A stretch of DNA of 42,599 bases, from positions 1 through 42,599 of the forward strand of contig NZ_ATUO01000010.1 of NCBI RefSeq assembly GCF_000420245.1, read 5' to 3'. Under the pieces are notes generated by a model. The model saw only the letters and a program-made list of their open reading frames with translations. It was not told where the DNA came from and did no database searches. A program made the position numbers and the translations under genes. The stretch is from Psychromonas hadalis ATCC BAA-638. Lineage in GTDB: Bacteria > Pseudomonadota > Gammaproteobacteria > Enterobacterales > Psychromonadaceae. Every line of letters begins with the position of its first letter. Within the stretch, counting starts at the first letter, position 1. Positions 18,825 to 21,380 of the stretch are shown piece by piece.

Positions 18825-18851
18825 AAAAAGGCTACATTTTGTAGCCTTTTT
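18825..18851 (+). terminator. Intrinsic terminator after dapD
   Basis: AAAAAGGCTAC, a 5-base ATTTT loop, and GTAGCCTTTTT form an 11-bp perfect stem ending in a U run, 28 bases after the dapD stop. The A-rich left flank makes it partly bidirectional, but no minus-strand gene ends here. Confidence 0.9.
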
Positions 18852-18865
18852 ATCGTCACCTTGTC

Positions 18866-18909
18866 CGGTCATAAAACCGTCATCTCTCTGTCACAGTAAT
18901 CCTTATAAT
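18866..18909 (+). promoter_or_regulatory. Pho box with -10 element
   Basis: Three GTCA half-sites begin at 18868, 18879 and 18890, exactly 11 bp apart: CGGTCATAAAA, CCGTCATCTCT and CTGTCACAGTA. This is the tandem PhoB-site arrangement (consensus CTGTCATAAAN repeated). A perfect -10 hexamer TATAAT (18904-18909) follows. The second and third units form an 18-bp box separated from the -10 by 9 bases, almost the spacing of the E. coli phoA promoter. There is no separate -35, as expected for an activated Pho promoter. The transcript would start near 18916 and read into the PstS-like/OmpA gene. Confidence 0.75.
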
Positions 18910-18944: not shown

Positions 18945-20720
18945 ATGTCCGCTCAAGAATCGATCACAAATAGAAAATTAATTATTAACCCTGCATTTAA
19001 AAAGCAACTTTTATTACTCAAAAGTTGTGCTAATGCAGAGCTTAATATCCAACTCTCACTTGATAAAATGGTTTCTGACAAACAGTACCGTTTAACGGTA
19101 TTAACGGAGCTAGATGGTTTAGGGAGTGAGCGTTTAAATGATCTTGTAACGCAGTTAAAACGACTTCCCCTTTATATAAAATTAGCCCCTTCTGTGGCAG
19201 AAAAAAAAGTGCCTCCAGCAGTAAAAGTGAGCGCCAAGAAATCCCCTATGGCCACTATTTTAGCATCATTATTATTGATTATTGGTATCGCTGCTTTTAT
19301 CAGTTGGCAAAATGGTTATGTAAATATTAATGTTCCCACTACTGAGGTACAAGCGGTAGACAAAATAGCACCCCAAACGCTAAAAGTGATTGAAGATGAA
19401 ATTGCTATTATTGCCGCTGTCGTAACGCCTGTGCCAATCCCCAAGAAAGAGCTGACACTACCAAGTGAGCAACGTATTGTTAAGTTGCGCTTACATGGCT
19501 CTAATACCGTGGGTGAGAGCCTTGCGCCTGCATTACTAGAAGCTTACCTCGTATCACAATCGGTGACTCAGATGATGTGGGTACAAGGGCCACAGTTAGT
19601 AGAGCGTGAGTTGCAATATATTCAAGATGAACAGGTTTATGCCATTGAGTTACATGCACATGGCTCAACAACTGGTTTTAAAGATTTGCTCTCGGGTGAG
19701 AGTGATATAAGCATGTCATCGCGGAAAATAAAGATTAAAGAGTTAGATGCACTGCGCCCAACACTGGGAAATTTAGCTTCTGTTGGCCATGAATATATTA
19801 TTGGTCTTGATGGACTTGCCATTATTGTTAATAAAAATAATCCCATTAGTTATATGACCAATGAATTATTAGCAAAAATATTCTCCGGAGAGGTTAGCAA
19901 TTGGAAAGAGGTGGGCGGGGATGATTTAGCGATTAACTTATATGCACGTGATAGCAACTCTGGTACTTGGGATACTTTTAATAGTTTGTTATTAAAGGTA
20001 AATAATAAGCAACTTAAAAAAGAAACCACACGTATTGAGTCCAGTACTGAGTTATCAAGCCGTGTTGCAGAAGATGTTGCCGCGATTGGTTTTATTGGCC
20101 TACCTTATGTGAATAATAGCAAAGCGTTGGCTATTTCAGCCACACAAGAGAGCGCTGTTATCTATCCTACCAGTTTTACGGTGAGCACTGAGGACTACAT
20201 ATTATCGCGTCGCCTTTATCTTTATGTTCCTAATAATAATAAAATGGCACAGAGTTTCAGTCAGTTTGTTATCTCTGCACAGGGACAAAGTGTGGTTGAA
20301 CAGGTCGGTTTAGTTTCCCAAAACATCAAACTTGAACATGCCTATAGAGTAAAAAATGCGCCACAAAATTATAACAATTATGCTGAAATAGCGAGCCGTT
20401 TATCGGTTAGCTTTCGTTTTAAAAGCGGCAGTAATGAGTTTGATAATAAAGCACAACGTGATGTTAAACGCTTAGTGGATTACCTCACGGAACATCGTGG
20501 CAGGCGCATCGTTTTAATGGGTTTTTCTGATTCGTTGGGGGACCCAAAAATGAATTTATCACTCTCTTTGGTACGTGCTAGCAAGCTTGAAAAAGAGCTA
20601 AATGCTTACGGTTTAAATGTTACTGCTGTCGAAGGTTTTGGAGCAAAATTACCTATTGCTTCTAACAAAAGTGCATTAGGAAGAAGTAAAAATCGTCGTG
20701 TTGAAGTTTGGGTCTTTTAG
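18945..20720 (+). CDS. Membrane-anchored PstS-like phosphate-binding protein fused to OmpA domain
   Basis: A 591-aa fusion. Residues 1-100 are a polar N-terminal region without a known domain. One membrane helix (about 103-120) follows. A PstS-like periplasmic binding domain (about 178-450) shows LHGSNTVGESLAPALLEAYL, SGESDISMSSRKIK, IFSGEVSNWKEVGG and ARDSNSGTWDTFN. A C-terminal OmpA-like peptidoglycan-binding domain (about 478-591) includes FKSGSNEFDNKAQRD and GRSKNRRVEVWVF. The N-terminal region would be cytoplasmic, with the rest spanning the periplasm to the cell wall. Phosphate binding is inferred from the fold and supported by the Pho box upstream. AGGGA before the ATG supports the start. 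Confidence 0.8.
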   Translation: MSAQESITNRKLIINPAFKKQLLLLKSCANAELNIQLSLDKMVSDKQYRLTVLTELDGLGSERLNDLVTQLKRLPLYIKLAPSVAEKKVPPAVKVSAKKSPMATILASLLLIIGIAAFISWQNGYVNINVPTTEVQAVDKIAPQTLKVIEDEIAIIAAVVTPVPIPKKELTLPSEQRIVKLRLHGSNTVGESLAPALLEAYLVSQSVTQMMWVQGPQLVERELQYIQDEQVYAIELHAHGSTTGFKDLLSGESDISMSSRKIKIKELDALRPTLGNLASVGHEYIIGLDGLAIIVNKNNPISYMTNELLAKIFSGEVSNWKEVGGDDLAINLYARDSNSGTWDTFNSLLLKVNNKQLKKETTRIESSTELSSRVAEDVAAIGFIGLPYVNNSKALAISATQESAVIYPTSFTVSTEDYILSRRLYLYVPNNNKMAQSFSQFVISAQGQSVVEQVGLVSQNIKLEHAYRVKNAPQNYNNYAEIASRLSVSFRFKSGSNEFDNKAQRDVKRLVDYLTEHRGRRIVLMGFSDSLGDPKMNLSLSLVRASKLEKELNAYGLNVTAVEGFGAKLPIASNKSALGRSKNRRVEVWVF

Positions 20721-20729
20721 GAGAAAAAT

Positions 20730-21380
20730 ATGAGTTTTTTAGTTAAAAATAGAGACACATTAACGCAGTTATTTAGCACTTTTAATTTACAAGAGATACT
20801 CTTGTTAAATCAAAACTTAAATAGCTCATGGCATCTGCTAACCTCTCCTCCTGCGCAACTACTTTTAGCAATGAAAGAGAGACAAGTTAATATAACGTGT
20901 TTTTTAGGGAAAAAATGTTTACCTTTAATTCGCTTTTATCTTGCTTCGCAACAGAGTCAAAAAACGACCTTTTTATCCATGGAGTTATTAACAACACTCT
21001 TTATTAGTTTACCCGCTGTTGAAGCGACGGTATTTAAAGCGCAGATACAAAAAGCACAATACGCCCTACAACAAACCAATCAAGCTCTCTCTGAATTGTT
21101 ATCAGGACAGGTATTAAAGTCATCTGAAAAGAGCAAACTTGTGGTGCAGTTTAATCATTATCAGTCCAATAACAAACCCTCTTTAACTCAGTTAGCAGAA
21201 ATGGATAAAAAATATCTTAATTGTTTTTATTATCTACAAGCAGGCGACATTTTTGTTGTGGCTGAAGGGCAGGGTATTGATGTCGACATGTTGTTGTATA
21301 GTGAGCTTTCACCCCTACAGCAACTTAAAGCACAACAACTTGTTGGTGATGAAATAGTAGAGGTGAGTGTTTCAGCCTAA
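20730..21380 (+). CDS. Unknown protein in the putative Pho operon
   Basis: A 216-aa protein that I do not recognise. It starts 9 bases after the PstS-like/OmpA gene with an AGGAG site, so it should be cotranscribed and Pho-controlled. It has no signal peptide and no clear membrane helix; the most hydrophobic stretch is FLSMELLTTLFISLPAVEATVF (about residues 86-107). Glutamine-rich helical regions (IQKAQYALQQTNQALSELL) suggest coiled-coil or bundle character in the middle. The C-terminal half looks like a compact alpha/beta region (NCFYYLQAGDIFVVAEGQGIDVDML). A soluble cytoplasmic partner of the N-terminal part of the upstream protein is conceivable, but that is speculation. Confidence 0.75.
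   Translation: MSFLVKNRDTLTQLFSTFNLQEILLLNQNLNSSWHLLTSPPAQLLLAMKERQVNITCFLGKKCLPLIRFYLASQQSQKTTFLSMELLTTLFISLPAVEATVFKAQIQKAQYALQQTNQALSELLSGQVLKSSEKSKLVVQFNHYQSNNKPSLTQLAEMDKKYLNCFYYLQAGDIFVVAEGQGIDVDMLLYSELSPLQQLKAQQLVGDEIVEVSVSA

Follow-up and report, generated by a model that had tools for sequence, protein, structure and literature searches.

A predicted PhoB-activated promoter ahead of a gene for a PstS-like/OmpA fusion protein and its partner in Psychromonas hadalis

In the window analyzed here, the 42,599 nucleotides of contig NZ_ATUO01000010.1 of Psychromonas hadalis ATCC BAA-638, positions 18,866 to 18,909 of the forward strand would form a PhoB-activated promoter, with three 11-bp repeats in the place of the -35 element and a good -10 element behind them. 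Downstream on the same strand lie a gene for a 591-aa fusion of a PstS-like phosphate-binding domain and an OmpA-like domain (18,945 to 20,720) and, 9 bp after it, a gene for a 216-aa helical protein with two repeats and no known family (20,730 to 21,380). The explanation that we favor, with a probability of roughly 0.6, is that the fusion is a starvation-induced, tethered phosphate-capture protein that supports uptake by Pst and is made with its partner from a PhoB-activated promoter. Under phosphate shortage, phosphorylated PhoB would switch on this two-gene unit.

Direct reading of the sequence located the three GTCA half-sites at 18,868 to 18,871, 18,879 to 18,882, and 18,890 to 18,893, with the 11-bp spacing given by the first-pass annotation, whereas the gap from the last GTCA to TATAAT (18,904 to 18,909, forward strand) is 10 bases and not the 9 stated there. 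The half-sites fall in forward-strand Pho box repeats 1 (CGGTCATAAAA, 18,866 to 18,876; sequence reading, consensus search, and matrix), 2 (CCGTCATCTCT, 18,877 to 18,887; sequence reading and matrix), and 3 (CTGTCACAGTA, 18,888 to 18,898; sequence reading, matrix, and pattern search), and ATCCT stands between repeat 3 and the -10 element. A promoter scan found no TTGACA-type promoter at the place of the Pho box; a missing -35 of this type is expected because the promoter would be activator-dependent. A fourth GTCA, at 18,855, is out of phase (13 bp), and a terminator-like hairpin of the upstream dapD (GGCTACA-TTT-TGTAGCC with a T-rich tail; 18,830 to 18,853, forward strand), recognized by eye, is absent from the listing of that scan. 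The PhoB promoters of phoA, pstS, phoB, and phoH in Escherichia coli likewise combine 11-bp direct repeats carrying GTCA with a good -10 and no -35, and share the distance from the last GTCA to the -10 element (10 bases at the fusion gene, 10 to 11 in its relatives). Unlike them, the P. hadalis site has three perfect GTCA cores and, to our knowledge, the PstS/OmpA fusion gene class is absent from the E. coli Pho regulon.

Across the 3.98-Mb genome (351 contigs), the exact GTCA-N7-GTCA-N10-TATAAT architecture occurs once, at 18,866 to 18,909, with about 0.07 copies expected per spacing from base composition; the same pattern with a spacing of 11 has no copy in this genome. This uniqueness, together with a Pho box and -10 element located 35 to 79 bp ahead of the start codon, argues against a chance run of GTCA that has no role, in front of a gene outside the Pho regulon. 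The case for such a run is that the exact GTCA triple, with one genomic copy, one in the control, and about 0.4 expected, proves little by itself, and that matches with two to three mismatches are at control level: allowing up to two, the spacing-10 architecture gave 29 matches against 55 in the control and the spacing-11 architecture 44 against 50, neither above control. Since recurrence before homologous genes also far exceeds three controls, as detailed below, we regard a chance run as very improbable.

The Pho box consensus, used here as an 18-mer search pattern, is CTGTCATAWAWCTGTCAY. Allowing three mismatches at most, it matched 31 sites in the genome; since the reversed pattern matched 24, the bulk of these matches are noise. 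Only five sites had two mismatches or fewer, and they precede phoB (one mismatch), pstS, the fusion gene, pstC, and an EAL gene (two each). The last of these (G000:C147:2665-2682, minus strand) lies 50 to 67 bp before a gene for an EAL and a partial GGDEF domain, and a link of phosphate starvation to c-di-GMP is possible. A three-mismatch Pho-box-like site (G000:C3:34231-34248, minus strand) stands some 100 bp ahead of a gene for a porin (PF00267).

A PhoB weight matrix, the check that the first-pass annotation had proposed, was built from nine sites of six E. coli K-12 promoters (seven were examined and phnC yielded none); leave-one-out scores for the seven ranged from 5.2 to 23.0. The fusion site scored 19.7, compared with 18.7 for phoB, 18.1 for pstC, and 17.2 for pstS of the same genome. 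Within the window the two highest scores were 19.7 (at 18,877) and 17.2 (at 18,866), and the next best among 85,156 positions was 11.5. Consensus-search sites with no evident promoter role score similarly (18.7 for L046; 18.4 for L054 and L055), and the matrix score alone therefore does not discriminate.

We then considered the stretches upstream of homologous genes. From 100 scored loci, nine that repeated a genome and one duplicate upstream stretch (L115) were dropped, leaving 90 homologs that are top relatives only, the scan having retained the best 80 of at least 570 confirmed. Close relatives such as L079 and L081 were kept, so the 90 are not independent. Start codons were set at the most upstream ATG, possibly wrongly in places; the L073 stretch was lengthened and the L075 start moved after inspection, and the choice of 10 and 11 as spacings was made with the window already known. 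A matrix score of at least 11 was found upstream of 41 of these 90 best homologs; the reversed matrix gave 4 such genes and the opposite strand 1. The pattern GTCA-N7-GTCA-N10/11-TATAAT reached at least 11/14 before 40 of the 90, versus 6 reversed, 5 on the other strand, and about 1.9 in shuffles, and the scoring genes include those of Psychromonas, Pseudoalteromonas, Kangiella, Pseudomonas, Cellvibrio, Neptuniibacter, Catenovulum, and Aestuariicella. The remaining 50, including most of the genes from Marinobacterium, Amphritea, and Rheinheimera, were below 11/14. Many relatives retain both the fusion gene and the predicted Pho box, and putative PhoB control is not universal across the family.

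Within Psychromonas, 9 of 24 genomes carry the fusion gene, which is thus an accessory gene. The flanking sequence has diverged in the genus, and eight of the ten fusion genes in these nine genomes reach 11/14; a ninth (L074) has a 13/14 site, seen by eye, just beyond the scanned stretch. A block of the form ...TGTCAY-N4-6-ATCCTTATAAT is visible before several of them. Upstream of the genes of Psychromonas sp. AH-709-K23 (L074) and Psychromonas sp. RZ22 (L076), at least four GTCA-like half-sites could be discerned by eye, apparently in an 11-bp phase that continues to the -10 element. In one genome (G056:C2:232898-238332) the fusion-partner unit is a tandem duplicate (L006, L071) with a Pho box before the downstream copy only, the upstream copy (L071) having no such site. 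The proposed PhoB-activated promoter architecture is supported, as the P. hadalis site ranks with those of its own phoB, pstS, and pstC and recurs before homologs. From these comparisons PhoB would bind at the predicted Pho box, and the fusion gene is very likely under PhoB control, even if roughly half of the family lacks a clear site.

The genome encodes PhoB (TIGR02154, 354.1 bits; cut-off 296.2), and the adjoining phoR, cut by the locus end, scores under its cut-offs. As the first-pass annotation had remarked, the fusion gene is apart from the pst genes: the genome's own pstS, over the TIGR02136 cut-off, lies on contig C1, and C21 carries pstC-pstA-pstB-phoU, the latter four named from permease family matches, from gene order, and from the 558-aa and 270-aa products, which match E. 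coli pst genes. Both pstS and the split-off pstC-pstA-pstB-phoU (L036, L188) have their own Pho-box-like site, and long proteins are encoded by pstC (741 aa) and pstA (558 aa). In the flanks of 100 fusion loci, queries with the genome's own pstC, pstA, pstB, and phoU gave only a 26% ABC-ATPase match (L148). E. coli phoB, phoR, pstA, pstC, and pstS queries gave none in the 100 loci, a search that is insensitive for pst: the E. coli queries also missed the genome's own pstS and pstC, and only the E. coli query was used to look for a separate pstS close to the fusions.

The domain assignment of the first-pass annotation was borne out by Pfam, with 94.9 bits for PF12849 (cut-off 27) and 49.6 bits for PF00691 (cut-off 27.2), and its agreement of site and function holds in that the Pho box spacing fits a gene class with a PstS-type domain. 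An AlphaFold2 model from 50 sequences (mean pLDDT 89.9) comprises a four-helix N-domain (residues 14 to 83; 18,984 to 19,193), a helix at residues 102 to 122 (19,248 to 19,310), a PstS-type domain (residues 178 to 465; 19,476 to 20,339), and an OmpA-type domain (residues 484 to 590; 20,394 to 20,714), all encoded on the forward strand. The PstS-type domain, found by Pfam, structure model, and structure search, has as its top Foldseek match the Vibrio cholerae phosphate-binding protein 1twy (E 2.2e-20), whose fold it shares with a TM-score of 0.84 to 0.86 by target length; unlike the fusion, 1twy is a free periplasmic protein with neither OmpA part nor membrane anchor. G185, S186, N187, T188, S259, R260, R335, S339, G340, and T341 are invariant in the 50 sequences; these residues are typical of the PstS phosphate site, where they would contact phosphate. 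The OmpA-like domain, assigned from Pfam, alignment, and model, carries D529 and R544, which show conservation of 90% or more across the 50 sequences and align with the Asp and Arg of peptidoglycan-binding domains, presumably their functional pair. Foldseek also matched the C-terminal domain of OprF; OprF (5u1h), PA0833 (6jfw), and omp38 (3td3) are alike in OmpA-like fold and Asp/Arg pair and unlike the fusion in that their domain is joined to barrels or lipoproteins. In two homologs (L017, L018) the phosphate-binding part is kept and the OmpA-like end is degenerate, the usual Asp/Arg region being gone.

These domains bear on what the protein would bind. The fusion could instead be an envelope protein of the Pho regulon, with a PstS-like domain that takes another anion, or a phosphorylated part of the wall or LPS, for remodeling under phosphate stress. 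This would explain the OmpA domain, the absence of pst genes alongside, a TIGR02136 score (166.5 bits) under the curated cut-off of 206.6, and the distance from the transport PstS (35% identity to the genome's own PstS over residues 233 to 459). It is hard to square with the invariance of the anion-site residues across the 50 sequences and with closest solved relatives that are phosphate-binding proteins, one of them (4gd5) phosphate-bound according to its title, and we judge it improbable.

The N-domain has no match in Pfam or NCBIfam and is predicted from the model to be cytosolic, and the transmembrane helix is indicated by structure model and hydrophobicity. Export by a signal peptide does not fit the fusion, about 100 residues preceding its sole membrane helix. 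A hydrophobic membrane helix with at least 60 preceding residues occurs in 69 of the 90 best homologs, is nearer the start in 14, and is below threshold in 7; the forms of Pseudomonas and Kangiella, with a short N-terminus, fall into these latter two groups. From sequence and model, the fusion protein probably has two anchors, one in the inner membrane and one at the cell wall. Under tethered capture, it would span the inner membrane by one helix with the N-domain in the cytosol, and outside that membrane the PstS-type domain would bind phosphate while the OmpA domain gripped peptidoglycan. A phosphate-catching domain kept close to the inner membrane may allow more phosphate to be captured for the Pst transporter, to which the fusion may hand it over.

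The partner product matched nothing in Pfam or NCBIfam, and a search for a known fold gave 11 PDB matches with E no higher than 10, of which none reached 0.001. Its structure model has a mean pLDDT of 73.8, and residues 3 to 62 match residues 77 to 136 (hhalign, E 3e-9). Kinship of the N-domain with the partner was rejected (hhalign probability 0.5%). Partner homologs follow 33 of the 90 best fusions, leaving 57 with none directly downstream. Among 148 genomes of the order, in which fusions were counted at E 1e-60 or better, six genomes hold seven partner genes and eight further genomes have a fusion with no partner. All seven partner genes are beside a fusion, which suggests that the two work jointly, and we propose that the partner is a cytosolic factor contacting the N-domain.

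The same arrangement could belong to a Pho-induced transmembrane phosphate receptor in which the periplasmic domain senses phosphate, the wall anchor positions it, and the N-domain signals its state to the partner. In favor of this reading are a folded N-domain ahead of the helix in most homologs and a partner gene that, across 148 genomes, occurs only next to the fusion. It is weakened by the lack of a known signaling domain in N-domain or partner (Pfam, NCBIfam, and PDB fold search), by the 57 homologs with no adjacent partner, by the short N-terminus of the Pseudomonas and Kangiella forms, and by an N-domain and partner that do not match each other, and we consider it rather unlikely. That fusion and partner form a starvation receptor unit separate from Pst-PhoR, the cytosolic partner reading phosphate binding through the helix and N-domain, is doubtful.

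Proteins of comparable make-up occur in Pseudomonas. The part of Lidbury et al. (2016, PMC5082522) that concerns Psp3 describes it as having an OmpA domain, as present in all Pseudomonas screened, as enriched (PSTAA_2217) in the exoproteome of one strain, DSM4166, under phosphate depletion, and as functionally uncharacterized. Psp3 is a probable relative of the window's fusion, likened to it by the PstS-type and OmpA domains in one protein. The five Pseudomonas homologs found here (43 to 45% identity to the fusion over the phosphate-binding and OmpA part) have a short N-terminus in place of N-domain and membrane helix, and no partner gene. For PP_3818 of Pseudomonas putida KT2440, annotated as a phosphate-binding protein with an OmpA domain and thus alike by description, the section of a 2022 study that deals with it (PMC9358898) calls its function little known and reports it only as a deletion in a multiple mutant: in a Pst- and Pit-deficient strain, its loss only lowered final density. 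This counts against tethered phosphate capture, as do the 50 best homologs below 11/14, the tandem copy with no site, a gene confined to 9 of 24 genus genomes, and the subthreshold TIGR02136 score.

In the open-licence literature we found no description of the form with N-domain and transmembrane helix, of its Pho box and broad footprint, or of the partner gene; the earlier link that we found, in the part of PMC5082522 cited above, is a response at the protein level in a single strain of Pseudomonas. What the present comparison adds is evidence at the level of regulation, drawn from many genomes, for counting OmpA-linked phosphate-binding proteins among the members of the Pho regulon. It also indicates a form equipped with a cytosolic domain and an orphan partner dedicated to it. 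If true, it would be unusual for a scarce nutrient to be gathered or sensed by a transporter-type binding protein that is held at the inner membrane and at the wall.
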